A stretch of DNA of 64,000 nt from Saccharopolyspora erythraea NRRL 2338 (GTDB lineage Bacteria > Actinomycetota > Actinomycetes > Mycobacteriales > Pseudonocardiaceae). The stretch lies in assembly GCF_000062885.1 (NCBI RefSeq), contig NC_009142.1:5631584-5695583 (forward strand). Reading direction: 5' to 3'. A program made the position numbers and the translations under genes. How positions within the stretch are numbered: the first letter of the stretch is position 1; every line of letters starts with the position of its first letter. A model generated the notes under the pieces. It was not told where the DNA came from and did not search any database. It worked only from the letters and a program-made list of their open reading frames with translations. Below, one piece after another: positions 4,852 through 53,586 of the stretch.

Positions 4852-4885
4852 CGTTGTCTCCCGATTCTGTGCGACTGACGAACAT

Positions 4886-4904
4886 CTGTACGTTGGACGT
4901 ACAG
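4886..4904. promoter_or_regulatory. 19-bp palindrome, candidate operator of the symporter operon
   Basis: CTGTACGTTGGACGTACAG is a perfect inverted repeat (8-base arms, 3-base centre) 35 bases upstream of the symporter start. Position and symmetry suit a dimeric repressor. The best local candidates are the IclR protein at 281-1045 or the partial GntR-type regulator at the window start. Nothing else in this stretch up to 5057 looks coding. Confidence 0.5.
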
Positions 4905-5057
4905 ACGATGAGCGACGGCGGGAGCGCTGTCAATAGACACCCACGGTTTGGCCGACGCAGCACTGGAAAGGCGATACGGCTGTTCGGCTTCCTGGTGTGA
5001 GCGGCGATGCTGCTCACAACCGACTCTGAACATGACGCCGCTGGTATCGCCTCATAC

Positions 5058-5105
5058 AACACCGGGGCCGGATGATCCGAGTGCGGATCATCCGGCCCCG
5101 GTGTT
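5058..5105. terminator. 22-bp perfect hairpin, probable bidirectional terminator
   Basis: Two 22-base arms pair perfectly around a 4-base loop (AGTG at 5080-5083); both arms are GC-rich. There is no T-run, as is common in actinobacteria. It lies between the leftward MIP18-like gene (ending 5248) and the start region of the symporter operon and would isolate the two. Confidence 0.65.
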
Positions 5106-5247
5106 GCCACGCGCCGGCGACGTCAGGCGCGGGACGGTTCGTGACCTCGAGACGGCGACGCCCAGCCCGCACTCCGCCGGCCTCCAACGGCAGGCGACGG
5201 TGGAACGCCAGAGGCGAAGGTGAGCATGGCCGTTTCGCCGGCGAACG

Positions 5248-5669
5248 TCAGGCTCCATGCCGACCCGCCATTGACGGCTTGCTCGCCGAGGAGGTCCGGG
5301 GCGGCAGACCGGGCACGTCGTGCAGGTCTTCCTCGGCCAGCGCCGGCTCGTCCCGGAGCATGCCGGTCAGTGCTCTCTCCAGCAGCCCGCTGTTGATCAC
5401 CTCCGAGTCGTGGTGGTCGTCCAGGACCACCACGACTTCCCGCGCCCGCGGAAGCTCCGACAGCACGTCCTTGGCATCGGCAGCCATCAGGTAGGCGAAG
5501 TTGGGCGAGCAGAAGGAGGTCGGCAGGCGGAGGTGGACAGTGATGTCACCTTGGTCCGAGACCTCCAGGGAGCGGACGAAACCAAGGTCGGTGATGGGTT
5601 CGTCCAGTTCCGGGTCGAAGACACGATCCAGTGCCGACGTGCGGCTCGTTGCAGCTCTGCGGTATGCAT
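5248..5669 (-). pseudogene. MIP18/DUF59 iron-sulfur assembly factor, frameshifted near its start
   Basis: The family core reads LDRVFDPELDEPITDLGFV followed by a segment with the conserved Cys in PTSFCSPNFAYLMAADAK. MIP18-type proteins help build or deliver metal-sulfur clusters. The initiation region (ATG at 5669, MHTAELQRAARR) is in a different frame from the core; the break is near 5633-5640 and one or two bases would join them. The start lies one base after the stop of the truncated amidohydrolase, so the pair was once a coupled operon. An amidohydrolase next to a DUF59 gene is known beside actinobacterial propane/alkane diiron monooxygenase operons; no monooxygenase is present here. Confidence 0.7.
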
Positions 5670-5670
5670 T

Positions 5671-6405
5671 TCAGGCCACCGCCGCCGCTTCGACCACTCC
5701 GAGATCGTCGGGGACCTCGATGTCGTACATGGACGCGGCGTTGAGTCCGAGGATTTTCTTCTTCTGGCCCACGGTGAGCGGCGGGTATTCCGTCATGTCC
5801 TCGGGGATCTGGAAGTCGACGAAGCGTTCGACCAGCCACCGGGGCGTCCAAAGCGCGTAGTCGCTGGAGAACTGGATCCGGTCTTCGTCGAGCCAGTAAA
5901 GCAGTTCGCCGATGATCTGGGCGAAATACCTGGGTCGGGTGTGGATGAAGGGCATCGCGACGGCGAGGCCGGCGTGCACGTTCGGCTCCTGCGTCGCGAT
6001 CCAGCAGAAGTCCTCCAGGCGCGGGAGGCCGCAGTGCTCGACGACGAAGTTGAGGTCCGGGAAGTCCGTTGCGGCGATGTCGACGTCGGCGACGTCGAAC
6101 GCGTCGCGGTCCAAGGGCCGAATCGTCGGTCCCTTGTGGATGTGGATGTTGCGGATCCCGAGCTCTCGGCAGGCTTCGAGATAGCGGTAAGTCCACGGAT
6201 CGTTGAGCTTGTACCCGCGCGAATCACCATGCCACTCCGCGGTGTAGAGCTTCACTCCCTTGAGCTGGAATTCTGCGCCGGGCACGTCGCTGGGTGCCTG
6301 GTAGGCCTCGTGGTGGGTCGGTGCGCCTGGCTGCAGTCGCGGTGTGACGTCGACCTGCACTGCGGTGCGGTCTGCGTCGCGAGCCGCCGAGTTCCGGTGG
6401 CCCAC
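5671..6405 (-). pseudogene. Amidohydrolase lacking its N-terminal half
   Basis: From about position 6284 leftward the protein matches the C-terminal part of amidohydrolases found with diiron monooxygenase operons: LKGVKLYTAEWHGDSRGY, NIHIHKGPTIRPLDRDAFD, FVVEHCGLPRLEDFCW, FSSDYALWTPRW and KKILGLNAASMYDIEVP. Family members are about 350 residues and begin with a metal-binding HxH motif that is absent here. The first ~40 residues of the open frame (from 6405) do not resemble the family. It is therefore a 5'-truncated remnant, coupled to the MIP18-like gene. Confidence 0.7.
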
Positions 6406-6718
6406 CCGTGCCGAGGGTTGGTCCTTCGCCGGCTCGCGACCCTCGCAAACGTATCGCCCAGCACCGAACTACGGCGGCGTGGACGACGGCAACCGCTCGC
6501 AGCGCGCCTACGACCGGGGAAGACAGTATCTCGCCAAGTTGAACCCTGCACGGCGCGACCACCGAAACGACGATCGCTTCGAACCCCGTCCTCGGCGACG
6601 CGATCAAGACGAAGGGATGTGTTTCCTCGGCCCGAGCCGTGACGCGCATGGTGCTTCGGATCAGGGTGGCGAGTAGCGAAATACGGGGGCTGCGTCGCGC
6701 ATTACGTCGGTGGCGGCT
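6406..6718. other. Gap without a recognisable gene
   Basis: 313 bases between the truncated amidohydrolase and the fructuronate reductase gene. No reading frame has family resemblance and no hairpin stands out. It probably holds the breakpoint where the amidohydrolase lost its 5' half. Confidence 0.4.
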
Positions 6719-8020
6719 TTACACGGTTCGGCCGGCGGAGAGCCGCAGGTGCTCGACGTAGTCCTCCACCGCGGAGACCAGCTCCCGGTCGTTGGCGAGG
6801 GTGACGTCCAGAGCGGACAGGACACGGCGCGGGGCGTCCGCCGAGTGTGCCAATGAGACCAGTTCGTCGGCGCGGGGGTCGCTGACCGGGCGGTCGCGCA
6901 GATGGATCAGCCAGCCGGCCAACGCCGCGACCGGGGCATCGGGCATTCGCTGCGCGGCGCGTTCGGCGCGCAGCACCGGCAGGATCCGGGCGGGGATCTT
7001 TTGGGAACCGTCCGCGGCGATTTGCAGCAGGTTGTGCCGCACCCCGCGGGAGGAGAAACGCTGACGCAGGCGCTGCCGGTAGTCGGCCAAGTCCTCCTCC
7101 GGAAGGGACGCGTGGCGCGACGCGACGTCCCACCACGACGCGGTCAGCCTCGCCAGCACCGGGTGCCGGACGGCCTCGTCGACCGTCGCGCACCCCAGCG
7201 CAGGACCGGCGTAGGCCAGCAGTGTGTGCGCACCGTTGAGAAACCACAGTTTGCGCTGCTCGTACGCGGCGAGGTCGTCGACGAACCTGGCACCGGAGTT
7301 CTCCCACGCGGGCCTGCCGAGCGGGAAGTCCCCGGCCAGCAGCCACTCGCTGAACGGTTCGGTCACCACGGGAGCCCGATCCTCGAAGCCGGTGAGCCGC
7401 GCGGTGGCGGTGACGTCCTGCTCGGTGGTCGCGGGCGTGATCCGGTCGACGACCGTGTCGACGAACGACACGTGGTCCTCGATCCACGAGCGGAAATCCG
7501 GGGCCTCGCCTGCTGCGGCGGTGCGGATCGCCTCCCGCAGCACGCCGCCGTTGCCCGGCAGGTTGTCGCAGGGCACAAGCGCAATCGGGGCGCCGCTCGC
7601 GCGGTGACGCCCGCGCAGCCCGGCGAGGACGCGGCCGATCGCGGTCCCGTCCTGGTCACCGGACAGCCGGTAACCGGCCTCGGTGATCGTCAGCGTCAGC
7701 AGCGTCACGTCGGGAGAAGCCAGATCGGCGAGCCACTGGTCGGTTTCGCTGCCGGGATGGGCACGGCTGATCGCATCGACGATCTCCGCCCGTGGCTCCC
7801 CTTCTCCGCGCACCTGCAGCGAGTACAGACCGTCTTGCTCGGCGAGCGTGCGCGGGAGCTCGGTGTTGCGGAACGTGTAGGCCGCGATGCCCCAATCCGG
7901 GTCGGCCATCGTGTACACCGCCTGGTGGGCCCGGTGGAATGCGCCGAGTCCGAGGTGGACGGCGCGTACCGGAGCCGGCGGGCGTGCGTGGGCAGCGGCG
8001 CGGGTCAGTCGTGTCGTCAC
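6719..8020 (-). CDS. uxuB: Fructuronate reductase (mannitol dehydrogenase family)
   Basis: 433 aa long-chain NAD-dependent polyol dehydrogenase. N-terminal nucleotide domain: VHLGLGAFHRAHQAVY. Centre: VPCDNLPGNGGVLREA. Catalytic part: RKLWFLNGAHTLLAYAG, with the conserved K and N-G-x-H. It reduces D-fructuronate to D-mannonate (or tagaturonate to altronate) in hexuronate breakdown. Its start overlaps the uxaC stop by four bases, so the two are one operon, and a mannonate dehydratase is encoded across the LacI gene. That context favours the fructuronate/mannonate branch over mannitol oxidation. Confidence 0.88.
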   Translation of the reverse strand: MTTRLTRAAAHARPPAPVRAVHLGLGAFHRAHQAVYTMADPDWGIAAYTFRNTELPRTLAEQDGLYSLQVRGEGEPRAEIVDAISRAHPGSETDQWLADLASPDVTLLTLTITEAGYRLSGDQDGTAIGRVLAGLRGRHRASGAPIALVPCDNLPGNGGVLREAIRTAAAGEAPDFRSWIEDHVSFVDTVVDRITPATTEQDVTATARLTGFEDRAPVVTEPFSEWLLAGDFPLGRPAWENSGARFVDDLAAYEQRKLWFLNGAHTLLAYAGPALGCATVDEAVRHPVLARLTASWWDVASRHASLPEEDLADYRQRLRQRFSSRGVRHNLLQIAADGSQKIPARILPVLRAERAAQRMPDAPVAALAGWLIHLRDRPVSDPRADELVSLAHSADAPRRVLSALDVTLANDRELVSAVEDYVEHLRLSAGRTV

Positions 8021-9525
8021 AGTCGGAACGCCTTTCGCGGCTGGCGGTCGTGGAGGTCGTGGATGACGAGAGCGGCGTCGTCCTCGCTGAGCACGTGCTC
8101 GGCGACGAGTCCCGCCAAGTGGGCCGCGTCGACCCGGCGGGCCGTGTCATGGCGGGCGGGGATGGAGCAGAACCCTCGGGTGTCGTCGATGAAGCCCGCG
8201 TTCCGGTAGAAGCCGGCCGTTTCGGTCACGGCGTCGCGGAAGCGGTACATGGCGCGGGGAGCATCGAGAAACCACCACGGCGCACCGAGGTAGACCGAGG
8301 GGTAGAACCCGGCAAGAGGGGCGAGTTCACGTGAGAAGACGGTCTCGTCGAGGGTGAACAGGACCGTCTGGAACCGCGGGTTCGTGCCGAAACGCTCCAG
8401 CATGGGCTGCAGCGCGCGGGTGAACTCCGCCTGCAGCGGGATGTCGTGACCGGTGTCGGGGCCGAAACGGCGCAGCGTATCCGGGTGGTGGTTGCGCCTG
8501 CTGCCGGTGTGCAGCGCCATGACCATGCCGTCCTCGCTGGACATGCGGGCCATTTCGCCGAGCAGCTGCTGGGACAGCAGGCGGGCGTCATCGGCACTGG
8601 CTGTGCCGGATCGGACCGCATCGAACAAGCGCTGCGCCTGCACGGCGTCCAGGAAGGCCATGCGCGCATCGGGGGCACTGTGATCGGTGGCCGTGGCGCC
8701 GTGCGCGCGGAAGTGCTCCCTGCGGTTCTCCAGTGCCCGGATGAGCCCGTCGTAGTCGCCGGTGTCGATGCCGCTGGCGGCGGCGAGGTCGTCCAGCGCC
8801 GTGGTCCAGCCGGAGCCGGTGGCATCGAGGCAGCGGTCGGGGCGGAAGGTCGGCACGACGCGGCCCGACCAGGACGGGTCCTCGGCCAGGGCCCGGTGGT
8901 AGGACAGGTCGTCGGTGGGGTCGTCGGTGGTGGCCAGCGCCGCGATCGCGAACGAGTCGTACAGCGCACGCGGCCGGAACTCGGGCTTGCGCAGCCGGAC
9001 GGTGAGCTCGTCGAACAGTTCGTCGGCGGTGTCCGCCGAGGGCTGCACCGTCACGCCGAGCACGTCGTGCAGCTCGGCCTCCAGCCAGCCCCGGGACGCG
9101 GTGCCCAGGAACAGGTGCCAGTGCTCGCAGAAGGTCCGCCATACGTCCCTCGGCTGTGCGGGGTCGGTGTCGTCGGCGCTGTCGCGCAGTCCGAGGTCGG
9201 CCAGCGGGACGCCGTGGGCGTGCAGGAGGCGGGTGACGTAGTGGTCGGGGGTGACCAGTAGCGACGCGGGGTCGGTGAACGCGTCGTCGTCCGCGAGCAG
9301 GCGGGCCTCGACGTGCCCGTGCGGGCTGATCAGCGGGAGGTCACGGACGCTGTCGTAGAGCCGCCGCGCGATGCAGCGCTGGGACGGTTCGGACGGGAGC
9401 AGCCGGTCCGGGTGCGGGGTCAGCGGCACCCGGCCTGCAGGGGCGGCCCCGCGAGGTGTGGCAAGGGGGCCGGCGTGCTCGTGGTCGTAGCGGGTCCCGG
9501 AGGTTGCTGCCATGCCGCGGTCCAT
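8017..9525 (-). CDS. uxaC: Glucuronate (uronate) isomerase
   Basis: 502 aa. Uronate isomerases are amidohydrolase-fold enzymes; the N-terminal metal motif is LISPHGHVEARLL. Further matches are DVWRTFCEHWHLFLGTASR, YDSFAIAALATTDDP, VVPTFRPDRCLD, MVMALHTGSRRNHH and YPSVYLGAPWWFLD. It converts D-glucuronate to D-fructuronate, the first intracellular step. The frame opens with about 30 residues that look unstructured; ATG at 9525 is used, with ATG at 9513 also possible, and neither has a good ribosome site. A LacI-type operator lies 30 bases upstream. Confidence 0.93.
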   Translation of the reverse strand: MDRGMAATSGTRYDHEHAGPLATPRGAAPAGRVPLTPHPDRLLPSEPSQRCIARRLYDSVRDLPLISPHGHVEARLLADDDAFTDPASLLVTPDHYVTRLLHAHGVPLADLGLRDSADDTDPAQPRDVWRTFCEHWHLFLGTASRGWLEAELHDVLGVTVQPSADTADELFDELTVRLRKPEFRPRALYDSFAIAALATTDDPTDDLSYHRALAEDPSWSGRVVPTFRPDRCLDATGSGWTTALDDLAAASGIDTGDYDGLIRALENRREHFRAHGATATDHSAPDARMAFLDAVQAQRLFDAVRSGTASADDARLLSQQLLGEMARMSSEDGMVMALHTGSRRNHHPDTLRRFGPDTGHDIPLQAEFTRALQPMLERFGTNPRFQTVLFTLDETVFSRELAPLAGFYPSVYLGAPWWFLDAPRAMYRFRDAVTETAGFYRNAGFIDDTRGFCSIPARHDTARRVDAAHLAGLVAEHVLSEDDAALVIHDLHDRQPRKAFRL

Positions 9526-39527: not shown

Positions 39528-40173
39528 TTACTCATCACCTCCCGAGCGGCGTGCCGCCAGGGGATGCGGTTCGCCGGTCAATGCCGCAACCGCCGCAGCA
39601 ACCTCCTCGAGACCGGCTCGAATGTAGGTCGTCGTGGTACCGCCGTCCCCACTACTGCTGTCGGTGTGCCCGGCGAAAGCCCGGGCAACCGCATAACCGA
39701 AATGTCGCTCCACCCAGGTCAGGGTGGTGTGGCGCAGCCAGTGCGTACTGATCTGCTGCGAGGCCACCCACGGCAAATGCGAGCCCAGCCTGCTCCACAG
39801 ATAGTCGTAGCGGCGCCGGGTGATCGGCTCCCCGTTGACGTACCGCAGCAACTGCCCACCCGACTCGGCCGCACCCCGATGCTCGGCGTGGTCCTGCAGA
39901 TGCCGCATCAGGGTCGGCGACACCGGTTGCCACCGCACCGTCCCGCCTTTCTCCTGCAACAGCACCAGACACTGCTGCGGATCGAGATCCCGTGGACGCA
40001 GCGCCAACGCTCCACCCCGGCGGCAGGCGGTCTCGGTGTGCAGCCGCAGCAGCAACGTATCCAGCGCCGGATCATTGCCCGTGGCCGCAGCCACCTCGTT
40101 GATTTCGGCCAGGCCGGAATCCGGCAACCCACGGCGGGTGGACGGCAACCGGCGCGGTTTGGGCACACGCTTA
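39528..40173 (-). pseudogene. Tyrosine recombinase, C-terminal part (split by an IS5-family insertion)
   Basis: Carries the catalytic domain: first Arg in HTETACRRGGALALRPRDLD, the second box in ISTHWLRHTTLTWVERHFG (H-x-x-R), and the later AFAGHTDSSSGDGGTTTTYI with His and the nucleophile Tyr. The N-terminal half is at 41088-41491. Removing the IS5-family element and one copy of the TTA target duplication restores EGDNPAKRVPKPRRLPSTRRG across the junction, so the insertion is the only disruption. Confidence 0.88.
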
Positions 40174-41084
40174 GGGGTCCTTTCAGATTGCGTGTGTGGG
40201 GAGCTTGGCGGCGAGGATCATGCAGTGGGTGAGTTGGAGGAAGCCGTCGTGGATGTCGTCGCGGGTTTCCCAGCGGATCCGTAGGCGGCGTGGTCCGTGC
40301 AGCCAGGCGATCGCGGCTTCGACCACCCACCGCAGCTTGCCGAGGCCGGAACCGTGGTCGTCACCTCGGCGAGCGATCCGGGGTGTGATGCCCCGGGCCC
40401 GCAGCTTGTCTCGGTAGACGTCGTGGTCGTAGGCCCGGTCTGCGTAGAGGCGGCGGGGTTTGCGGCGGGGCCGACCCGGCCGTCCGCGCACCGGTGGGAT
40501 CTCCTCCACCAGCGGCACCAGCTGGGTCACATCGTTGCGGTTGCTGCCGGTCAGCACCACCCGCAACGGGGTTCCACAGGCATCGGTGATGACGTGGTGC
40601 TTCGAGCCCGGCCGACCACGGTCAACCGGACTCGGACCGACTTTTGGGCAACCACGTCCCCGTTTGGCCTGGATCTGGGAGGAATCCACGACCGCTCGGG
40701 AGAAGTCCAACTGATCGGCCGCTCGCAGGCGATCCAGCAGCACCCGCTGCAACTGCTCCCATACTCCGGCCTGCTGCCACTCGGCCAACCGCCGCCAGCA
40801 CGTCGACCCCGAGCCGAATCCCAACTCCTGCGGCAGAAACTCCCACTGGATGCCGGTGTAGAGCACGAACAAGATGCCCTGCAGAGTCTTGCGATCGTCG
40901 ATCCGACGCCGACCCGGATACCGAAACCGACGCTCGTGCCGGGGCAGCAACGGCTCGATCAACGCCCACAACTCGTCGCTGACCTCCCACGGCCTCGGGC
41001 GAGCCATCCCACGCTCCCAACGATCGAAACGTGATCAACTCCAGCCACCACCATGCCAGACCAAGATCATTATGCAAGGACCCC
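40174..41084. mobile_element. IS5-family insertion sequence with target duplication
   Basis: 911 bases. The ends read GGGGTCCTT inward from both sides and are flanked by TTA at 40171-40173 and 41085-41087. It holds one transposase. It interrupts the integrase gene cleanly, which suggests recent insertion. Confidence 0.9.
40183..41007 (-). CDS. IS5-family transposase
   Basis: 274 aa single-frame DDE transposase. It begins PWEVSDELWALIEPLLPRHE with the helical N-terminal domain (DUF4096-like), then GIQWEFLPQELGFGSGSTCWRRLAEW. Catalytic Asp in FSRAVVDSSQIQAKRG, second in RRLYADRAYDHDVYR, and Glu in LGKLRWVVEAAIAWLHGPRRLRIRW. It appears intact, so the element may be active. Confidence 0.95.
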   Translation of the reverse strand: MARPRPWEVSDELWALIEPLLPRHERRFRYPGRRRIDDRKTLQGILFVLYTGIQWEFLPQELGFGSGSTCWRRLAEWQQAGVWEQLQRVLLDRLRAADQLDFSRAVVDSSQIQAKRGRGCPKVGPSPVDRGRPGSKHHVITDACGTPLRVVLTGSNRNDVTQLVPLVEEIPPVRGRPGRPRRKPRRLYADRAYDHDVYRDKLRARGITPRIARRGDDHGSGLGKLRWVVEAAIAWLHGPRRLRIRWETRDDIHDGFLQLTHCMILAAKLPTHAI

Positions 41085-41087
41085 TTA

Positions 41088-41491
41088 GCCGGATTGTCGC
41101 CCTCGGCGATCCACCCGTCGGCGACCGCATGGTTGTACACACACCGCAACGCCGCGATCAGATGCTCGGCTGCACCCCGCCCACCACGGGCATTGCGCCG
41201 AGCCACTACGTGGGTTCTGACGTGCTCGGCGAACTGCTTGATCTCCAGCGCCGTCGGCTCATCCAGCCGCCGATCACCCCAGTGCTCGAGAATCCGGTTC
41301 CAGTACGAGCCATACACCCGCCGCGTGCCCGCCGACACCGCCGCCGACACCTTCGGGATGTACTCAGCGAAGGTCGGCGCCACCGGCTGCTGCGGAGGGC
41401 CGGCCACCAAGTCCTCCGGTGAGAGACCCATCCGCGCCAGCACCAGCCGTGCGGCCTCGATCTCCGCCTGCTCCGGCTGTCCGCCACTCAT
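41088..41491 (-). pseudogene. Tyrosine recombinase, N-terminal part (split by an IS5-family insertion)
   Basis: 134 codons of the SAM-like core-binding domain: TFAEYIPKVSAAVSAGTRRVYGSYWNRILEHWG, DEPTALEIKQFAEHV and ALRCVYNHAVADGWIAEGDNP, which arrange the N-terminal clamp around att DNA. ATG at 41491 overlaps the stop of the AbrB-like gene. The rest of the protein is at 39528-40173. Confidence 0.88.
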
Positions 41492-41958
41492 GACAGCTCA
41501 CCCCCGACCAGGGAGCTCGTGTGCGGAGCCAGCACCGCATCCAGCGCCCGCATCGGGAAGGTCACGACCACATCCTGTGCAGGGTCAGCGGCCAGCAGCA
41601 GCCGATCTCCCGCACTCACGCCCACCCGAGTGCGCACCGGGCCGGGCAGCAGCACACGGGCCACAGCCGGGATGGTGAACACGCCCTGCGGATCACGGCG
41701 CACCACCGCCGCACCCCCACGCACGCTCACGCTCACGTGGTCACCGGCGGCCCAGCCCAGCGCCCGCACCACCGTGTTCTCCGCGATCCGGCCCGAGGCA
41801 TCCACCCGGCCGATCCCGTAGACCCATGACGCGTCACCGGGAACGGGCATTACCTCGGCCAGCGGCAGCCGCGACCGCATTCGCCGAATCTCGGCCGGGA
41901 CACGCGACCGAGCACCCGTCGACTGCGGCACCAGGGCCGACACGATCCGCTCACCCAT
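41488..41958 (-). CDS. AbrB/MazE-like (SpoVT-AbrB) domain protein
   Basis: 156 aa. GIGRVDASGRIAENTVVRAL with GWAAGDHVSVSVRGGAAVVR is a looped-hinge DNA-binding beta fold; a second related half, FTIPAVARVLLPGPVRTRVGVSAGDRLLLAA, follows. Proteins of this kind with two swapped-hairpin units accompany integrases in actinobacterial elements and probably control them. Its stop overlaps the integrase start (ATGA). ATG at 41958 is chosen; upstream GTG codons in frame are possible. Confidence 0.72.
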   Translation of the reverse strand: MGERIVSALVPQSTGARSRVPAEIRRMRSRLPLAEVMPVPGDASWVYGIGRVDASGRIAENTVVRALGWAAGDHVSVSVRGGAAVVRRDPQGVFTIPAVARVLLPGPVRTRVGVSAGDRLLLAADPAQDVVVTFPMRALDAVLAPHTSSLVGGELS

Positions 41959-42178
41959 GGCCACCACCACCCCGGCGACCACAGGCACACCGGGCCAGCA
42001 GCACAGGGACTGCACATGCCACACACCCGCAGGACAACGCTGGCCTCTGCGGGTTCGACTTAACGTAATACTGGGGAAATCTCACCAGTTTTTTGTGTCC
42101 GAGGGGGGAGTTGCGCACTAACCATACGGATTGAGCTGCCGGAGCCCGAGTGACACGGAGCCCCGCCGAAGCCCAAAG

Positions 42179-42352: not shown

Positions 42353-42482
42353 CACACCCGCAGACGGCAGATGCCCCGGCTCGGACGGTTCCCGCGTTCC
42401 GGCCCAGCGAAGCGTCAGTGGGCGATAACATGCCCGCAGTGGGCAGACTGACGTTTCAAGGATGGGCGGAGAGGAAAATGCC

Positions 42483-43433
42483 GTGGTGACGGGTGCAACG
42501 CAGCAGAGCTCCGCGTCGCCCGGCTCAACCCAATCCGCGGCGGCGACGTGGGAGCCCTTGGTCGCAGCCAACGACGCCCAGCGCGTCGCGAATAGCTACG
42601 GTGCCAAGCTGACCAATCTGATCACGACAGTGCCGAAGACCCAGCCTAGCCCGGGTGTATGTGTGTGGTTTCTGGGGACTGTCATCGGGGCCGGCGAGCG
42701 CGAACGCGCGGCCATCGCGTGGATCATCGCCGACTCCGTGATGAAGAATCGCGCGGGTTCTTCTCGAGCTGGAGAGCTGTGGCGGTCCGCCGCGCTCGCC
42801 GGTACAAGACTATCCGGTCGCGATCGAAAAATCGTTTCCGCTTTCCTCGACGGCGTGTTCGGGCTTCCACCGGACGGCAAGAGCGAAATCCACGTCATCG
42901 GGCACGTCGCTGAATGGCTGTGGTACCTGCACGCACGTGAGACCGTCCATGGGTCCCGGAACATCGCGTTGCTTGATCCGCCCAAGTTCAACGTGACCGA
43001 GCCTGGCGGGGATGGTTTCGTCGTGTTCTCCGACGCCGTTACGTCGGAGACCTCATTCCGGTTGTGGGAAATCAAGCAGCACGTCGGCGGCTCCGCAGTG
43101 TCGACCACCGTGGGCACCGCGTATAAGCAACTGTCGACGAATGCGACGCGATATCTCGCGCAACTGACCGGTATCCACTCTACGCAACCCGGGCCGGTCG
43201 GTGAGTTGTGTCAGCAACTGGTCGACTTCTGGATCGACTGCAGCCACCGAGCCGGTGCCGGGGTCAGCGTCGCGTCCGCCACGACCCCGGCACCGCCCAG
43301 GTGTTTCAGCACGATGGGGAGGCACTTTCCCGGCTTCACGCAACCCGGTCAGATGGAAGGGCTGCTGATGGCAGTCGAGGATCTCCCCGGACTCGCCCGT
43401 GATGTGAGGGGCTATCTGTGGACCGTGCTCTGA
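42483..43433 (+). CDS. Putative PD-(D/E)XK nuclease, HamA-like partner of a helicase
   Basis: 316 aa. The candidate active site is GGDGFVVFSD (Asp near residue 177) and LWEIKQHVGG (E-x-K near 196-198) in beta-strand context, as in PD-(D/E)XK nucleases. The D-G-F then E-x-K order resembles DUF1837/HamA proteins of Hachiman antiphage systems. GTG at 42483 lies eight bases after GGAGAGG; an ATG at 42462 has no usable site. The gene overlaps the Ski2-like helicase gene by 16 bases, so the two are co-translated, the same order (nuclease then helicase) as hamA-hamB. The overall family assignment is tentative. Confidence 0.6.
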   Translation: MVTGATQQSSASPGSTQSAAATWEPLVAANDAQRVANSYGAKLTNLITTVPKTQPSPGVCVWFLGTVIGAGERERAAIAWIIADSVMKNRAGSSRAGELWRSAALAGTRLSGRDRKIVSAFLDGVFGLPPDGKSEIHVIGHVAEWLWYLHARETVHGSRNIALLDPPKFNVTEPGGDGFVVFSDAVTSETSFRLWEIKQHVGGSAVSTTVGTAYKQLSTNATRYLAQLTGIHSTQPGPVGELCQQLVDFWIDCSHRAGAGVSVASATTPAPPRCFSTMGRHFPGFTQPGQMEGLLMAVEDLPGLARDVRGYLWTVL

Positions 43434-46400
43434 ACTCTGAGGCACTCGCCGACGCGCTCGGCCAGCACGCGGAGGGCGCGCTGCCGTCGGTGGAGGAACT
43501 CATCAACCTCATCGCGGATCTAGAGGTGCAAACCTTCATCCGCCCGGAAGCTATCGATGAAAATCTGCTCCGGGCAGGGTGGTATTTGCACGGGATCGCG
43601 TCCGCGGCCGCGTCCCCGGAACTGTACACACCTGCTCGTCAACAGCGCGCGTTCGCGGTCTCCGCCCACATTTTCGATCTCGCTTTGAATGAGTCGGGCC
43701 GTGACGTCCGCGACCGACTGACTCTCGCGTTCGGCGCTCAGGTCGGCTACCGGCGTGCTGATCTGGACCCCAACGCCACAGCGATCTGGCGACGAGTCGA
43801 CGACCTCCTCGATGGTCCCGGCTCTGCCCCGGAAGGCGACCACGATTCCGGAGAGTCCGGTGATCTCGGCGCCGACATGCGCGCCGCGTCTCTATCGACT
43901 GAGAGTTTCATGACCATGGCGCTGCGGGCCGGGGTGGCGTTCCTCGGGCTGGACGTGGCGCGTATCGGGCAACTGCTCCGCGTCTGGCGTACCGAGGCCG
44001 CGGCCATGGCGTCCCGCATCGAGATGGACTCGTTGCAGTCGACCATGTTCGGTCCCGCCGAAGCGGTGACCCGTGCCGTCGCTGAGCTGATGGCGTTCCT
44101 GCGCTACGGCAACCGTGAACGTCTCCGCGCAGCGCGAGCCGGGCTCCACTCCGTGATCGACCTCCGTGCCGGCGGCGGTGACCACGACGCGCGATGGGTC
44201 ACAGCCCATCTGCTGGCCATCGCCGACGGCATGGAAACCTCCAGTATTTGGAGCGTTCTTCCTGACGGGACGCCGGACGCGGTCGCGCAAGCGTTCACCG
44301 TCGGCGCGCCACCCGTGCTCACGCTGTGGCCGCCTCAGCGGGACTTGTTAATGCGTACCACGGCGAACCCTCTGGAGCCGGCCACCACGCGGCTGTTGCT
44401 TTCGGTCCCGACCAGTGCGGGCAAGACTCTGCTGGCGCAGATTCTGATCTGTCATCACCTAGCAACCCAGCCCGGGGACGTCTGCTACGTAACGCCGTTG
44501 CGCAGTCTGGGCCGCGAGATGCGCCAAGCGCTGTCGGGACGCCTTCGTGTGCTACAGAAGGGGCTCGGCGCCGATCTCCCTGACTTCGGCGCCATCAGCA
44601 TTGACGACTTCTTCACCTTCATCGACGAATCTGGCGACTCGTCGGTGGAGGTGATGACCCCGGAGCGACTGGCGCACCTGCTGCGACGCGACCCGGAGGG
44701 CGTGCTCGACCGGTTCTCGATGTTCGTGATCGACGAGGCGCATCTGCTCGCCCAGCAGGACCGTGGGTTCCTGCTCGAGTGGCTGCTGGCGGTGCTCGCA
44801 ACTACCGACGCGCGCCTGATCCTGCTGTCGGGAGTCATGGGCAACGCGGACAAGGTGGCGGCTTGGCTCGACCCCACTCGCCCGGATGTTCTGTTCAGCT
44901 CCGACTGGCGTGGTCCAAGGCGATTGCACGCGCTGCTCTACTCCGACGTTGTGTGGGAGGCGGAGCAGCGGCTCCCACTGAAGTCGAAGACCTTCACCTC
45001 TCGATCCAGTTATCCGGTGATCGCCGACCTTCGAGTCCGGCCGGCCGAAAGCAACGTCCAGCGACTGACCACCCCACGGGACGAGCCAATCGGCGAGATG
45101 GAAAGCAAACGTCGCACGAACGGTACCTACGAGCGGAACAGGACGCCGTTCTACCTGCTGTGTGCGAGAACCGCCCATGTGCTGCTTCCCACCGGTAGCC
45201 TGCTGATGATCCTCTCGCGCCGCGACTACGCCCGCAATGCCGCACAAGAGGTCGCGAAACGACTCGATGTGACGTCGCGTACCGAAGCGCTCCGCGAGTT
45301 TCTCGAAGAACGACTCGGCGTACAGCACCCGCTCGTCGACTGCGTGCTCCACGGGGTGGCCTACCACCATGCCGGACTGCCGGTCGATGTCCTGGACGCG
45401 TTGGAGCAAGCGATGCGGTCCGAAGTGCTGCTGGCCATGTTCGCCACCTCGACACTCACCGACGGCGTCAACCTACCGGTGCGCACGGTGCTCATCTGCG
45501 AAACTCGGTACCAGGGCCAGGACCCTGGACAGCAGATGGACGGGCCCCGGCTACTCAACGCGGTCGGACGCGCCGGCCGGGCCGGACGCGAAACCGAGGG
45601 CTGGATCGTGCTGGGCGTCCAAGCCAAACCCGCCGACCGCCACTTCGAAGTTCTCCAGCCCGCCGCGGACGATCTTGAGATCGTCTCGACGCTGCACTCC
45701 AATGACGCACTGCACCAGTTGGCCGAAGCCGAGGCGCTAATTGCTGAGACCGCGGATGCTCTCTTCGAGCTGGCATCAGGCGCGGCCGCGGACTTCGCGA
45801 CGTTCGTGTGGTTCGTCCTCTCGACCCTCGAACGACTCGACCCATGGGCATCAGCGACGGACCCGCGCGACGTTGTACGACGCCTGCTCGCGTTCACCCA
45901 AATGCCGGATCACATCGAACGACGATGGATGGCTTTCGCCAACCACGTCGAACAGCAATATGCCCGCACGCCGGCCGAGAGCCGACGCCGATGGACCGTG
46001 ACCGGCACCGCGCTACGCAGCGCTCGACGGATCGAACAGATCGCAGTGAAGGTGGCTGACGAGGTCACCGCCCGCCACGAGGACCTGCCCCAAGCCGACT
46101 CGGGCATGACGTCCCTGACCACGATGTCCCTAACCACCGAGGAAGCGCTTGCGGTATTCGACGACGCCGGGATCTTCGAGCTGTTGCTGGAGTTGCCCGA
46201 GGCAGGCAAGGTCTGGCGATTCAAACCGACGGTGGGAGCCAAAACGACAGTCGACGTGTCGGTAGCCTCGGCTTTGCGCGGCTGGCTGGCGGGCTTGGAC
46301 ATGCCCGCGCTGGCCGCCGCGATACTGCCGACCGTCGATAACCCCTCGTGGCGACTGGAGCAGACCGTCGACGCGGTCAGCGGCGCGTTCGAACATTTCC

Positions 46401-46993
46401 TCAGTTGGACGGTCGGCGTGGTCGTCTCCCAAGCCAACGAGCTTTTGGTGGAACGCGGCAGCGCGACCGTCCTCCCGGAGGACTTGTCGTATTTCATCCG
46501 GTACGGCGTCGACACCACCACGGCCCTGAAGTTGCTGACCAGCGGTGTGAAGTCACGACGCATCGCTCACCAGATCGGTCGCAAGGCTCAAGCGCAGGAC
46601 ATCGAGTGGCGCGAGGTGCGTGACTGGCTCCGAAACCTCCACATCGCCGGATGGCGCCACGATTTCGAAGCAACACCTCGGGAGATCGAGGACCTGGCCG
46701 AGTTCTGCCGGTCACCGGCCCGGAGCCCACTGCGGCAACTTCTGGAGGACCACGAAACGACAGTCGATCTGGCTCGCCCGCTCGATTTTCTGCCAACGAG
46801 TCCACGGGCGGTCGAGCTACGTATGCCCAGCCCGTCCGCCCCAGTCGAAGTCTGGACTGTCGATTCGCCAGCCTCCCGGATCGGGATCATCGCGGCGGCT
46901 TCACACGCCGACATCCATCTGCTGCACAGCAGTGGCGTCGAGTGCTCCGCAACCACCGACGGCATCGTGGTGAGACTCCGCGAGGCGGACTGA
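43418..46993 (+). CDS. Large Ski2-like SF2 helicase, HamB-like
   Basis: 1191 aa. A ~300-residue helical N-terminal domain precedes the helicase core. Walker A: SVPTSAGKTLLAQ (about 328-340). DEAH box: FVIDEAHLLAQ (about 436-446). Motif III region: LILLSGVMG. Second RecA domain: VAYHHAGLPVDVLDALE (about 646), TDGVNLPVRTVL, and motif VI LNAVGRAGRAGRETEGW (about 713). This is the order of Ski2/Hel308/HamB enzymes. The ~450 C-terminal residues are helical and unfamiliar. With the nuclease gene before it, it forms a candidate antiphage module that would sense or unwind nucleic-acid ends and license cutting. The host-repair helicase alternative is less likely given the accessory setting. Confidence 0.8.
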   Translation: MDRALNSEALADALGQHAEGALPSVEELINLIADLEVQTFIRPEAIDENLLRAGWYLHGIASAAASPELYTPARQQRAFAVSAHIFDLALNESGRDVRDRLTLAFGAQVGYRRADLDPNATAIWRRVDDLLDGPGSAPEGDHDSGESGDLGADMRAASLSTESFMTMALRAGVAFLGLDVARIGQLLRVWRTEAAAMASRIEMDSLQSTMFGPAEAVTRAVAELMAFLRYGNRERLRAARAGLHSVIDLRAGGGDHDARWVTAHLLAIADGMETSSIWSVLPDGTPDAVAQAFTVGAPPVLTLWPPQRDLLMRTTANPLEPATTRLLLSVPTSAGKTLLAQILICHHLATQPGDVCYVTPLRSLGREMRQALSGRLRVLQKGLGADLPDFGAISIDDFFTFIDESGDSSVEVMTPERLAHLLRRDPEGVLDRFSMFVIDEAHLLAQQDRGFLLEWLLAVLATTDARLILLSGVMGNADKVAAWLDPTRPDVLFSSDWRGPRRLHALLYSDVVWEAEQRLPLKSKTFTSRSSYPVIADLRVRPAESNVQRLTTPRDEPIGEMESKRRTNGTYERNRTPFYLLCARTAHVLLPTGSLLMILSRRDYARNAAQEVAKRLDVTSRTEALREFLEERLGVQHPLVDCVLHGVAYHHAGLPVDVLDALEQAMRSEVLLAMFATSTLTDGVNLPVRTVLICETRYQGQDPGQQMDGPRLLNAVGRAGRAGRETEGWIVLGVQAKPADRHFEVLQPAADDLEIVSTLHSNDALHQLAEAEALIAETADALFELASGAAADFATFVWFVLSTLERLDPWASATDPRDVVRRLLAFTQMPDHIERRWMAFANHVEQQYARTPAESRRRWTVTGTALRSARRIEQIAVKVADEVTARHEDLPQADSGMTSLTTMSLTTEEALAVFDDAGIFELLLELPEAGKVWRFKPTVGAKTTVDVSVASALRGWLAGLDMPALAAAILPTVDNPSWRLEQTVDAVSGAFEHFLSWTVGVVVSQANELLVERGSATVLPEDLSYFIRYGVDTTTALKLLTSGVKSRRIAHQIGRKAQAQDIEWREVRDWLRNLHIAGWRHDFEATPREIEDLAEFCRSPARSPLRQLLEDHETTVDLARPLDFLPTSPRAVELRMPSPSAPVEVWTVDSPASRIGIIAAASHADIHLLHSSGVECSATTDGIVVRLREAD

Positions 46994-48088: not shown

Positions 48089-48409
48089 ATGGGAGATCCA
48101 AGGTTCGATGGCTGCTCCGAAGAAGTACCCGACGAACTGCGTGAGCGTGCGGTGCGTGAGGTGGCCGAGTCCGGCCGGCCGATCGCGCATGTCGCTCGTG
48201 ATCTCGGTATCCACCCCGAGGCGCTGCGTAACTGGGTCCGGCAGGCCGAGGCCGACCGCGGTGAACGCACCGATCGAGCCACGACCAGCGAGAAAGACGA
48301 GCTGACACGGTTGCGCCGCGAGGTTGCCGAGCTGCGGCGGGCCAACGAGATCCTCAAGGCGGCGAGCGTGTATTTCGCCAAGGAGCTCGACCGTCCCCGG
48401 ACGAAGTGA
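48089..48409 (+). CDS. IS3-family transposase OrfA
   Basis: 106 residues: helix-turn-helix ELRERAVREVAESGRPIAHVARDLGIHPEALRNWVRQAE and a leucine-zipper-like tail KDELTRLRREVAELRRANEILKAAS. The expected beginning MAAPKKYP lies in another frame (ATG at 48107); one base near 48125 seems lost, so translation would need the upstream ATG at 48089. The stop overlaps orfB start, the usual frameshift zone. Confidence 0.82.
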   Translation: MGDPRFDGCSEEVPDELRERAVREVAESGRPIAHVARDLGIHPEALRNWVRQAEADRGERTDRATTSEKDELTRLRREVAELRRANEILKAASVYFAKELDRPRTK

Positions 48410-48536
48410 CCGCGATGATCGATGATCACAAGGACCGCTTCGGGGTCGAGCCGATCTGTCGGGTGCTGGAGTTCCCGCCCAGCACGTACTACGCCCACAA
48501 GGCCCGTAAGCCCGCTCGACGAAGCCTGCGAGATGA

Positions 48537-50447
<1,911 letters not shown>

Positions 50448-50993
50448 CAATACCTGTCCATCCGCTACGGCCAACGCCTGGCCGAGGTCGGTGTGACCGC
50501 CTCGGTCGGCTCGGTCGCCGACTCCTACGACAACGCCATGGCCGAGGCCCTCAACGGAACCTTCAAAGCCGAACTGATCGAACGACGCAGCTGGCCGAAC
50601 CCGGCCGCGGTCCAACGAGCCGTGCTGCAATGGGTCGGTTGGTACAACCACGACCGCCTCCACAGCGCGATCGGCCACGTCCCACCCGCCGAATACGAAG
50701 CCATGCACTACCGTTCCACCATCACCCCGAAGACCGCCTGATCCACACACTCCGGTCTCCATCAAAACCGGGGCAGCTCAACCTTCAGCCCTCCTCGGCG
50801 GATGGCTGGCCCCGGAGAGCGTATGTGTCCCGAAACAGGACACATCGTGGACCGAAGTGGACACGCGGCGACACTCCCTAAGTCGTGGACTATTACCAAG
50901 ACTGGGATGCGTGGACTTCGTCAGAGTGCAGGCGGGAACAGACTTTGATGCTGGATCCAGCCTCGGGCATAGGGCAGCGTTCGGTGGTCGCTG

Positions 50994-51938
50994 ATGGACG
51001 TGAGCAGGATTTCAACAGGACTTACTTCAGCCTGGAGCCATCTTCTGGCCGACTGGGATCGGACCCTGCGCTCATCGGGGAAGCCCGAGACCACGCGCTA
51101 CAACTACCTCCTTGCCGTGGCCCAGTTTGCCCGCTTTCTCACCGACAACGCGGCCGACTGCGCTGCCGGGCCAGCGGCGCCGGCAGAGTCGACGCGTGCG
51201 CACATCGAGGAGTTTCAGGCCTGGATGATCGAGACACGCTCGGCCTCGACAGCCTTGAACAAGCACAAGGTTCTGCAGCAGTTCTTCAAGTGGCTCGCCG
51301 AGGACGAGCAGGAGATCGACCGCTCACCCATGGAACGTGTCAAGGCCCCCACCACACCCACCAAACTGGTGCCGGTCATGGGCGATGAGGACACCAAGAA
51401 GATCCTCGACACCTGCAACGGCAAGACGTTCACCGACCTTCGAGACCAGGCGATCATCCGTCTCTACTACGGCACCGGCGCACGATTGGCCGAAGTCGCG
51501 AACCTCACCACCGACGACCTCGACATGGCCACCGACTCGGTCGTGTACCAGGGCAAGGGCGGGAAGAGTCGGCGCGTGCGGTTCGGACCGAAAACCGCCC
51601 GGGCACTGAGTCGCTACCTGCGCGCTCGCTCCCGTCACCGCGCAGCGGACGTGCCGAGCCTCTGGCTGGCCGCACGCGGCGCCCAGCCACTGCAGGCGAA
51701 CGGGATCAAGATCATGCTGAAGAGACGAGGCAAACACGCTGGAGTATCCGGCGTTCACGCCCACCGATGGCGCCACAACTACGCCCACGCGTGGAAGCTC
51801 GCCGGCGGCGACACCGGTGATCTGATGCTGCTGCTGGGCTGGAGCACGGATGCGATGGCTCGCCACTACGGTGCCAGCGCTGCCGCCGAACGCGCCCAGG
51901 AAGTCCAACTGCGAATGAGAATCGGGGAAAATGTCTAA
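50994..51938 (+). CDS. Tyrosine recombinase (XerC/D-like), first of a convergent pair
   Basis: 314 aa. The N-terminal SAM-like domain includes KPETTRYNYLLAVAQFARFL and STALNKHKVLQQFFKWLAEDEQE. Catalytic boxes: Arg in IIRLYYGTGARLAEVANL, Lys region VVYQGKGGKSRRVRFG, HxxR in VHAHRWRHNYAHAW, and LLLGWSTDAMARHYGAS with His/Trp and the nucleophile Tyr. It is paralogous along its whole length to the leftward recombinase at 52327-53277, with a small gene between. It overlaps that small gene by eight bases. Confidence 0.93.
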   Translation: MDVSRISTGLTSAWSHLLADWDRTLRSSGKPETTRYNYLLAVAQFARFLTDNAADCAAGPAAPAESTRAHIEEFQAWMIETRSASTALNKHKVLQQFFKWLAEDEQEIDRSPMERVKAPTTPTKLVPVMGDEDTKKILDTCNGKTFTDLRDQAIIRLYYGTGARLAEVANLTTDDLDMATDSVVYQGKGGKSRRVRFGPKTARALSRYLRARSRHRAADVPSLWLAARGAQPLQANGIKIMLKRRGKHAGVSGVHAHRWRHNYAHAWKLAGGDTGDLMLLLGWSTDAMARHYGASAAAERAQEVQLRMRIGENV

Positions 51939-52212
51939 CGATCAAGGAATGACTCCATCCCAGCGCAGTCGGCGAGCCCGAGCCGCCGCCCATGCCTCCT
52001 GGGCCAACACCGCTGACCGAACGGCACGAACGAGCCACGGAACCCGAGCGTTTCTCGCTCGCTTCGAGCGGCAGGTCGACCCGCATGGCCAGCTTGATCC
52101 AGCGGAGCGGGAAGTGCGAGCACGCCACGCCCGCATGGCCTACATGCTCAGCCTCGCCGAACGCTCCGCTCAGGCGAGAAGCAAGAGACGCGCACAAGCA
52201 GAACGGCAGTAG
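51931..52212 (+). CDS. Small recombinase-associated protein
   Basis: 93 residues: TPSQRSRRARAAAHASWANT, RTARTSHGTRAFLARFERQVDP, GQLDPAEREVRARHARMAYM, LSLAERSAQARSKR. Highly charged and helical with no enzyme motif; proteins of this pattern are common beside actinobacterial integrases and may be accessory DNA-binding factors. Coupled to the recombinase before it. A 5' fragment of a relative lies at 19253-19390 beside the other att-like repeat. Confidence 0.65.
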   Translation: MSNDQGMTPSQRSRRARAAAHASWANTADRTARTSHGTRAFLARFERQVDPHGQLDPAEREVRARHARMAYMLSLAERSAQARSKRRAQAERQ

Positions 52213-52254
52213 CCGAGACCCCACTCGGGTCTGCGATCACTGTCGCGGAACGCG

Positions 52255-52289
52255 GGCGGTGCGGTGTGCTCCGTGCACACCGCACCGCC
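52255..52289. terminator. 14-bp hairpin between convergent genes
   Basis: GGCGGTGCGGTGTG and CACACCGCACCGCC are perfect arms around seven bases. It lies between the ends of the small gene (52212) and the leftward recombinase (52327) and would stop transcription from both sides. Confidence 0.72.
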
Positions 52290-52326
52290 TGCGCTTCTGT
52301 CATCGGCCTGGCCCGCAAAGGCTCGT

Positions 52327-53277
52327 TCAGACGTCGTCGCCGATTCCCATGCGCACCTGGCTCTCCTGGGCCCGCTCGGCGGCGGCGCTGGCGCCGTAGT
52401 GCCGCGGCATCGCATCCGAACTCCACCCCAGCAGCAACATCAGATCACCGGTGTCGCCACCGGCGCGCTTCCACTGATGGGCGTAGGTGTGGCGCCACCG
52501 GTGCGCGTGCACGTGGTCCAGGCCCGCCCTCTGGCCCAGCCGCTTGAGGCGGATCTTGATGCCGTTGGCGTTGAGAGCCTGTCCCCCGCGATCAGCCAGC
52601 CACAAGTTCGGCAGATCAGCACCCTTGCGCTTGGCGCGCGCACGCAGATAGCGGCTCAGCGCGCGGGCGGTCCTGGCACCCATGCGCACCCGCCGGACCT
52701 TGCCGCCCTTGCCGTAGAGGGTCACCGACTCCGTCTTGAGATCGACATCCTCCAGCCTGAGGTGGGCGACCTCGGCCAGCCGGGCCCCGGTGTTGCAGAA
52801 CAGCCGGATGATCGCCTGATCCCGCAGGCTCAAAAAGTCCTTGCCCTTGCAGACCTCCAGCAGGCGCGTGGTCGCCTCCTCCTCGAGCACCGGAACCAGC
52901 TTGGTCGGCGCCTTGGGCAACCGCACCCGCTCCATCGGGGAACGATCGATCTCCTCCTCGTCGAGCATCAGCCACTTGAACAACTGCTGCAGGGCCTTGT
53001 GCTTGTTGACCGCCGTGGCCGCCGAACGCGTCTCGATCATCCACGCCTGGAACGCCTCGATGTGGGCCTTGGCGACCTCGGCCGGGTCCTCGGCCGCCGC
53101 GTCGGCCTCGGGATCGGGCGCGTGCTCGGCGAGATACCGCGCCAGCTGCGCGGCGGCCAGGACGTAGTTGTAGCGGGTGGTCTCCGGCCGGTTGCCGGAA
53201 CGCAGGCTGCGGTCCCAGTCCCGCAGGTAGCCGGCCCAGGTCACAGACAGGCCGTCGGTGATCCGTTCAAGATCCAT
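52327..53277 (-). CDS. Tyrosine recombinase (XerC/D-like), second of a convergent pair
   Basis: About 316 aa. RPETTRYNYVLAAAQLARYL and ATAVNKHKALQQLFKWLMLD form the core-binding domain. Catalytic boxes: IIRLFCNTGARLAEVAHLRL (Arg), TLYGKGGKVRRVRMG (Lys), VHAHRWRHTYAHQW (HxxR) and LLLGWSSDAMPRHYGAS (Trp and Tyr). ATG at 53277 matches the start of its paralogue MDVSRIS; 53286 is also possible. It ends against the small gene and begins inside direct repeat copy B, 120 bases from the tRNA-like half site, the normal place for an element's integrase. Confidence 0.93.
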   Translation of the reverse strand: MDLERITDGLSVTWAGYLRDWDRSLRSGNRPETTRYNYVLAAAQLARYLAEHAPDPEADAAAEDPAEVAKAHIEAFQAWMIETRSAATAVNKHKALQQLFKWLMLDEEEIDRSPMERVRLPKAPTKLVPVLEEEATTRLLEVCKGKDFLSLRDQAIIRLFCNTGARLAEVAHLRLEDVDLKTESVTLYGKGGKVRRVRMGARTARALSRYLRARAKRKGADLPNLWLADRGGQALNANGIKIRLKRLGQRAGLDHVHAHRWRHTYAHQWKRAGGDTGDLMLLLGWSSDAMPRHYGASAAAERAQESQVRMGIGDDV

Positions 53278-53586
53278 CGGGGGCATCGCGAAGCTCCGAA
53301 GTCAAGGTGTCGGTAAGCGGCATGCTTGACTTCGAAGAACGAACATTGATCATCAAAAAAGGGTCTTCACAGGTTCTGACCTGCGAAGACCCTTTCGACC
53401 GTCGGGACGGCGGGATTCGAACCCACGACCCCTTGACCCCCAGCGGTGGCCGGACAAGTGCGCCACCAGCACAAACAGCGACACCGCAGGTAAGGGCGCT
53501 CCCGTCCACTGCCGTATAGAGCGATATGCCGTGGAACTCGCCAACACGATCCTCCCACTTTCCTCCCAACACCAGCGTCAAAACGG
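53267..53586. repeat. Direct repeat copy B with tRNA-Pro-like 3' half (candidate att site)
   Basis: Imperfect direct copy of 19441-19752. 53403-53443, read on the minus strand, gives an intact anticodon loop CTGGGGG (anticodon GGG), TCAAG stem strand, T-arm with GGTTCGAATCCC and acceptor strand CGTCCCG of a tRNA-Pro-like gene. The 5' half is replaced by unrelated sequence at the anticodon stem, the usual crossover place of tyrosine recombinases. It is therefore a recombined att site, not a tRNA gene. Confidence 0.72.
53355..53395 (-). terminator. Terminator of the tRNA-like half gene
   Basis: On the minus strand, directly after the tRNA-like 3' end, AAAGGGTCTTCGCAGGT and its complement (one mismatch) form a 17-bp stem with a four-base loop followed by six T. 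This is a textbook intrinsic terminator and is preserved with changes in copy A (19525-19567). Confidence 0.8.

Follow-up and report, generated by a model that had tools for sequence, protein, structure and literature searches.

A Nuclease–Helicase Gene Pair of Saccharopolyspora erythraea as a Probable, Deeply Diverged Branch of the Hachiman Defence System

The Gene Pair and the Question It Raises

The stretch of DNA analysed here, referred to as the window, comprises 64,000 nucleotides of Saccharopolyspora erythraea NRRL 2338 and contains two overlapping genes for a putative nuclease and a helicase. An earlier note on this DNA had likened the pair to the Hachiman genes hamA-hamB. The question raised by the locus was whether the pair belongs to Hachiman, to another defence system, or to a function other than defence. 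The present analysis places it, very probably, on a deeply diverged branch of Hachiman (HamAB). The homology of the pair to HamAB was assigned with high confidence, and an anti-phage function is likely by analogy with the known system. Because the nuclease fails the HamA profile, the pair falls, as judged from sequence, outside the profile definition of Hachiman (HamA/DUF1837) and is a variant rather than a catalogued member.

Both open reading frames were uninterrupted and lay on the plus strand. The gene of the HamA-like, putative effector nuclease occupied positions 42462..43433 with an ATG start, giving 323 aa; an alternative GTG start at 42483 would give 316 aa, so that the start was uncertain by seven codons. 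The gene of the HamB-like, Ski2-family helicase occupied positions 43418..46993 with a GTG start and encoded 1191 aa. The two genes overlapped by 16 bases at 43418..43433, a segment that contained the helicase GTG start and the nuclease stop codon. Thus, the overlap with a 1191-aa Ski2-like helicase carrying its motifs, as described in the earlier note, was confirmed with both frames intact. Its 316-aa nuclease with a D-G-F...E-x-K site was borne out for the site and in part for the length, the ATG start giving 323 aa.

The PD-(D/E)XK-type catalytic codons of the nuclease were located on the plus strand at 43011..43076, with D184 at 43011-43013, E203 at 43068-43070 and K205 at 43074-43076, in the pattern D184-G-F ... 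E203-I-K205. The codon of E151, which would complete the metal site with these three residues, was at 42912-42914 on the same strand. In the helicase gene, which lies on the same strand, residues 1-270 (43418..44227) were modelled as an N-terminal region of helices. Motif conservation was counted in 39 helicases. Walker A, PTSAGKT, was at residues 331-337 (44408..44428), with P, T, S, G and K present in 39/39 helicases and T or S at position 337. Motif II, DEAH, was at residues 439-442 (44732..44743), with D and E in all 39; residue 442 was H in 28 helicases and Q in the other 11. The motif TSTLTDGVNLP was found at residues 677-687, and Motif VI, GRAGR, at residues 717-721 (45566..45580), was invariant in 39/39. 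The C-terminal tail, about residues 1101-1191 (46718..46990), was modelled as strands, at the place where HamB has an OB-like barrel.

Sequence Searches and Residue Conservation of the Nuclease

The 323-aa nuclease gave no significant match in Pfam (best E 0.33), PADLOC (0.039) or NCBIfam (0.49), the last of which was searched with the nuclease and the 1191-aa helicase as single sequences. Furthermore, none of 50 nuclease homologs matched Pfam, including PF08878/DUF1837, or the PADLOC HamA profiles at E ≤ 1, and neither of the two Deinococcus members matched Pfam (PF08878/DUF1837) at E ≤ 0.1. A sequence search of the PDB with the nuclease returned three sugar-kinase-like chains at E 0.03, which were taken as chance matches, since the 50-sequence nuclease profile recovered none of them at E ≤ 10. 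All 16 plasmid records label the product 'hypothetical protein', and none of the papers listed by literature searches on Hachiman variants was seen to describe this nuclease family.

Seven residues, G147, G182, D184, E203, K205, Q223 and Y231, were invariant in the 50 homologs, and E151 was glutamate in 48 of them. The patterns used in the locus search included motifs around E151 and around E203/K205. The conservation of G182, D184, Q223 and Y231 was free of this bias because these residues were absent from the search patterns. The alignment points to a conserved D-E-x-K metal site in the nuclease family. In addition, the nuclease and helicase genes gave dN/dS values of 0.07-0.42 in the six pairs tried, which indicates purifying selection.

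Predicted Fold of the Nuclease

The AlphaFold2 model of the nuclease, made with 50 homologs, had a pLDDT of 91.9. Residues 1 to about 30 were predicted to be disordered, the first 19 having a pLDDT under 50. In a Foldseek comparison with the PDB, HamA (8vx9_A) was the sole match at E ≤ 0.001 (E 3.1 × 10−5, TM 0.52/0.62, rmsd 6.9). With VIA-align, the same chain was matched with a Z of 14.9 over 228 residues (rmsd 4.3), residues 47-323 of the model being aligned with residues 1-256 of HamA. The chains 8zue_A and 8vxy_A gave Z values of 14.7 and 13.1, and the best chain other than the HamA/AbpA type, among the chains listed, gave 6.5. The identity between the nuclease and HamA was about 10-11% in the structural alignments. 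The predicted model bears on two points of the earlier note. The nuclease had been thought to share only its active-site pattern with HamA, which did not hold, as the model shares the whole HamA fold. The PD-(D/E)XK-type fold that had been proposed as a check was found, and its best match was HamA itself. On this model, the nuclease appears to carry the HamA fold over nearly its whole length.

The relationship was also compared at the level of profiles. In an alignment of 14 HamAs, M1, G82, E86, G118, D120, E137 and K139 were near-complete invariants, and hhalign placed G147, E151, G182, D184, E203 and K205 of the nuclease in register with HamA invariants, with D184, E203 and K205 lining up with D120, E137 and K139. 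The profile-profile probability from these sequences was low to middling: the 50 nucleases against the 14 HamAs gave 21% (E 0.001), and a 15-sequence nuclease set gave 52% (E 1.5 × 10−4). The real values of 20.7 and 31.8 for the two sets were compared with column-shuffled controls, 60 per set, which reached at most 9.9 and 11.2, and with reversed sets, run alike, which gave 4.9 and 4.8.

A separate defence system, in which convergence had brought an unrelated PD-(D/E)XK nuclease together with a HamB-like helicase, would fit the absence of a HamA profile match in all 50 nucleases, the structural alignment identity of about 10%, and the existence of other HamB-like helicases with unrecognised partners (L098 and L114). 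Such an origin is nevertheless improbable, for HamA stood far above other nuclease folds with an alignment reaching from residue 47 to 323, the invariant residues were in register with HamA, the gene order was the same as in Hachiman, and the HamA-binding region of HamB was retained in the helicase. Descent from a common HamAB ancestor was the preferred explanation of the pair.

HamB Likeness of the Helicase

The helicase matched the Pfam DEAD profile at 4.7 × 10−17. In PADLOC, PDC-M23B was the first match (1.4 × 10−66) and HamB1 the second (2.5 × 10−58), and both profiles matched 39/39 helicase homologs. The profile search suggested in the earlier note was thus positive for the helicase with HamB1 and negative for every nuclease with HamA/DUF1837. 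The helicase model (pLDDT 86.2) was aligned with HamB chain 8vxa_A with a Z of 24.5 over 935 residues and with 8vx9_B with a Z of 22.7 over 955 residues (9-1190 against 11-1165), the HamB alignments starting at helicase residue 9-10. Hel308 (2zj8) gave a Z of 26.8 over 643 residues, starting at 275, and Pol theta gave 24.6; these values were at or above those of HamB because the helicase core dominates them. Other than HamB, no chain exceeded 662 aligned residues among the 50 rows listed. Some Brr2 rows began at helicase residue 1-3, with about 560-580 residues aligned in all.

Residues 1-270 of the helicase were nearly as conserved as the core (mean p-distance 0.55 vs 0.52), and the least conserved part was the C-terminal tail (p-distance 0.755). 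In the HamAB study (PMC12278908), HamA is described as being held by an N-terminal helical bundle of HamB (NAH), and the bundle as a feature of every HamB that close Ski2 relatives lack. In the predicted model, residues 1-270 appear to correspond to this HamA-binding bundle, and the sequence matches point to a HamB-type Ski2 helicase encoded beside the nuclease. The helicase had been called long, with an unfamiliar C-terminal region. This description was not upheld, as the alignment of the model with HamB runs as far as residue 1190 and the length is normal for HamB, the E. coli HamB chain (8vx9_B) having 1174 residues. A housekeeping helicase was also considered and rejected: two other helicases of the same genome matched the core alone, at 30-34%.

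The rank of PDC-M23B as the top PADLOC model, with its match to every helicase homolog, raises the alternative that the pair belongs to the PADLOC candidate system PDC-M23 and not to Hachiman. A literature search under that name turned up no account of PDC-M23. This assignment is very improbable. The nuclease lacks a PDC-M23A match, as do all 50 homologs at E ≤ 1, and PDC-M23A was rejected as the identity of the nuclease; the PDC-M23A profile itself matched in one of 296 genomes of the phylum. Moreover, PDC-M23 seems to lie within the Hachiman spectrum, because at one related locus (L093, G142:C32, 442-4723) the helicase partner matched both HamA1 and PDC-M23A. This partner matched PDC-M23A at 7.3 × 10−7 but HamA1 better (1.1 × 10−16), with PF08878 above the cut-off, and was followed by a helicase with strong matches to HamB1 and PDC-M23B. 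The locus suggests that PDC-M23 is a Hachiman variant. Judged by the same profiles, the present clade is one step beyond L093, in that the helicase is recognisable and the nuclease is not. The divergent Hachiman branch thus remained the preferred reading of the pair.

Conservation of the Pair and Its Distribution

Of 394 genomes of the same class, three carried the nuclease, its own among them, and in two further genomes of the class the nuclease was likewise followed by a homologous helicase. When 84,980 species genomes were scanned with an alignment of three nucleases, 75 loci were obtained. Most hosts were Actinomycetota and a few belonged to Chloroflexota, Acidobacteriota and Candidatus Dormiibacterota; relatives were also present in 16 plasmid records, two of them from Deinococcus. 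The 75 loci were not independent, as L013/L014/L015 were near-identical to one another, as were L017/L069, and L072 was the same locus as L002/L004.

The helicase lay directly downstream of the nuclease in 69/75 loci. This result agrees with the earlier suggestion that the order and coupling match hamA-hamB, and shows that the two genes are conserved together. An in-frame helicase start exactly at the 16-base overlap was present in 69/69 loci with a helicase; for this count the start nearest the 16-base position was picked, and the observation is that such an in-frame start exists. RefSeq annotated the 16-base overlap in 8/8 plasmid regions that were opened. Five of the 69 helicase frames were shorter than 900 aa (L015, L030, L052, L054 and L074), and that of L071 ran off the contig. 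Six of the 75 loci were without a helicase, and four of these (L076-L079) were fragments at contig ends. The other two, L057 and L080, both from Streptomyces, showed no helicase match at E ≤ 10−10 in the roughly 10 kb downstream, and their nucleases were truncated, with the normal C-terminus lost. Downstream of L080 was a frame resembling, by eye, the last residues of the helicase. These two loci look like broken copies, and in L080 an internal deletion seems to have removed almost all of the helicase.

The nuclease and helicase distances were highly correlated in 39 loci (r 0.93), and none of 999 permutations gave a value as high. A helicase tree of 39 rows, 19 with this nuclease and 20 other HamB-like, was made in a quick version without an outgroup and was read as unrooted. 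In this tree, the 19 rows were split from the 20 others in one step (SH-aLRT 99). Among the 20 others, 17 had a HamA partner by profile or annotation and L113 had one by alignment; the partners in L098 and L114 were unrecognised. The branch to the present helicase clade was 0.77, shorter than that of 4.05 to the short HamBs of actinomycetes. In addition, one genome (G010) held a standard HamA locus as well as the present nuclease-helicase pair. Viral contigs scanned with the nuclease itself and with a helicase alignment gave 1 and 146 pattern stretches, none of which was confirmed, and phage genomes gave no tblastn match for the nuclease; there was no sign in these scans that the pair is carried by phages.

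Mobility and Neighbourhood

In the window, the pair was flanked on one side by an integrase piece and an IS4/5 transposase (39528-42024, minus strand) and on the other side (48089-53286) by IS remnants, namely IS3- and IS30-like pieces, together with two oppositely oriented tyrosine integrases. A MazE-like protein, weak and below the Pfam cut-off, was seen among this debris around the pair, and the 64,000-nt window contained no tRNA genes. The integrative-element debris noted earlier was thus present at the locus; support for the defence island proposed along with it came from the related loci.

Loci from different genera shared near-identical stretches: L013/L014 were 99.99% identical over 12.8 kb, and L017/L069 were 99.6% identical over 11 kb. 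Near-identical copies across genera were read as recent transfer, and mislabelled or contaminated assemblies could also account for them. Shared DNA was listed where the identity exceeded 85% and the length 1500 bases. In many cases it stopped at the end of the two genes, as in L014/L018 (4582 bases), and was longer in some locus pairs (6413 bases in L017/L018 and 7156 in L038/L045).

Defence neighbours were sampled from nine proteins of seven loci, picked by eye as promising (long frames, plus one from L005), so that the sample was non-random and control-free. PADLOC defence genes were near the pair in six of these seven hand-picked loci, L051 having none, and included pPIWI-RE (two loci), type I restriction, type IV restriction, QatA and TmtA. 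Clear defence products were also found in 3/8 annotated plasmid regions, namely SIR2 in one, ABC-three component and HEPN in another, and a restriction endonuclease in the third. That the pair serves DNA-break repair, plasmid exclusion or the stabilisation of its mobile element is very unlikely: HamB does resemble the repair helicase Hel308, and the pair does lie in mobile-element debris and on plasmids, but its patchy presence in the class, the near-identical copies across genera and the defence neighbours suit a mobile defence gene better than a repair gene, an argument that bears directly on repair and not on plasmid exclusion or addiction.

Comparison with Known Systems and Proposed Mechanism

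The pair was compared with HamAB from E. coli ECOR31 (PDB 8vx9, 8vxa and 8vxy; PMC12278908). Common to both were the nuclease-then-helicase order, the HamA fold spanning nearly the entire nuclease, the invariants G, E, G-x-D and E-x-K, and the length and domain order of HamB, from the N-terminal bundle that binds HamA through to the C-terminal end. The present nuclease differed from HamA in its identity of about 10% and in being invisible to HamA/DUF1837 profiles, and the conservation of W202, Q223, Y231 and W320 was specific to its family. Furthermore, the overlap was fixed at 16 bases here, whereas it ranged over 0-17 bases in the 11 other annotated HamAB pairs that were opened, all of them on plasmids. 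AbpAB (PDB 8zue, titled Hachiman defense system) has been proposed as a Hachiman variant, and AbpA has been described as having an extra N-terminal nuclease domain and a dead HamA site, in the same paper (PMC12278908). The C-terminal half of its 531-residue chain A (residues 258-537 of 8zue_A, Z 14.7) matched the nuclease model. In contrast, the present nuclease is without the extra domain, having about 46 residues before the HamA-like region, and its site is conserved. Hel308/Ski2-type helicases shared the helicase core with the present helicase, but their alignment began at about residue 271, and the N-terminal 270 residues and a partner nuclease were absent from them.

The 'distinct' Hachiman branch suspected in the earlier note is supported by the HamB-like architecture, the nuclease-then-helicase order and the absence of HamA/DUF1837 matches among the 50 nucleases. 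Against the Hachiman reading stand the same lack of nuclease profile matches, the rank of PDC-M23B above HamB, the Hel308 Z above that of HamB, the low to middling profile-profile probability and the quick helicase tree without a non-HamB outgroup, as well as the hand-picking of the defence neighbours and the clear products in just three of eight plasmid regions.

Previous work on E. coli HamAB (PMC12278908) describes a helicase that surveys DNA and restrains the nuclease, is loaded by free 3' ends and, through ATP-driven movement, activates the nuclease, so that phage and host DNA are degraded. By analogy, the helicase of the present pair would be a HamB-type, Hel308/Ski2-like sensor whose N-terminal helical bundle holds the nuclease, and the nuclease would be the effector, a HamA-fold PD-(D/E)XK enzyme with the metal site E151, D184, E203 and K205. 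The nuclease-helicase complex may patrol intact DNA in a restrained state. Phage infection would expose 3' single-stranded ends on which the helicase loads, its ATP-driven movement would free or activate the nuclease, and phage and host DNA would then be degraded, so that the infection aborts. Complex formation, nuclease and helicase activity, the DNA-damage trigger and the anti-phage effect are all inferred here from E. coli HamAB.

A further reading is more tentative, and on balance we doubt it. The clade may represent a third kind of Hachiman that evolves independently, its nuclease and helicase having co-diverged as a locked unit, with the 16-base overlap kept from Actinomycetota to Deinococcus. 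Behind the change in the nuclease would then lie an altered trigger or substrate, or evasion of phage-made HamA inhibitors, and not drift alone. If this is true, annotation pipelines miss a share of the Hachiman-type immunity of soil actinomycetes.

Other HamB-Like Loci and Significance

Hachiman-type immunity would, on the preferred reading of the pair as a diverged HamAB, extend beyond the reach of profile libraries, and surveys that demand a HamA match would leave the present loci uncounted. The comparison also marks the indispensable residues of HamA, namely G, E, G-x-D and E-x-K and little else. In addition, a second, distant HamAB would be available for structural studies of nuclease restraint by the helicase.

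Several other HamB-like loci were seen in the searches. In L098 (G134:C1:467000-479000, 4004-8546), a HamB-like helicase (PDC-M23B 8 × 10−52) followed a protein that matched nothing in PADLOC or Pfam. By eye, this protein has a stretch, S-G-I-D ... V-S-V-K, that looks like a nuclease site lacking its usual E, and it is possibly another HamB partner. An archaeal HamB-like helicase was found on a Halorarius halobius plasmid (L114, 2907-6727), with a 177-aa upstream neighbour that had no Pfam match and no HamA annotated beside the helicase. On the Nostoc plasmid pn3 (L110, 2321-6550), a 1409-aa protein was annotated as HamA with the helicase within the same protein, and HamA and HamB appear to be fused there in one gene. 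In a Candidatus Manganitrophus plasmid (L106, 3369-4127), the protein preceding a HamB-like helicase was annotated as SAVED domain-containing and matched PF08878 HamA at 3 × 10−15; the SAVED label is probably a mis-annotation.
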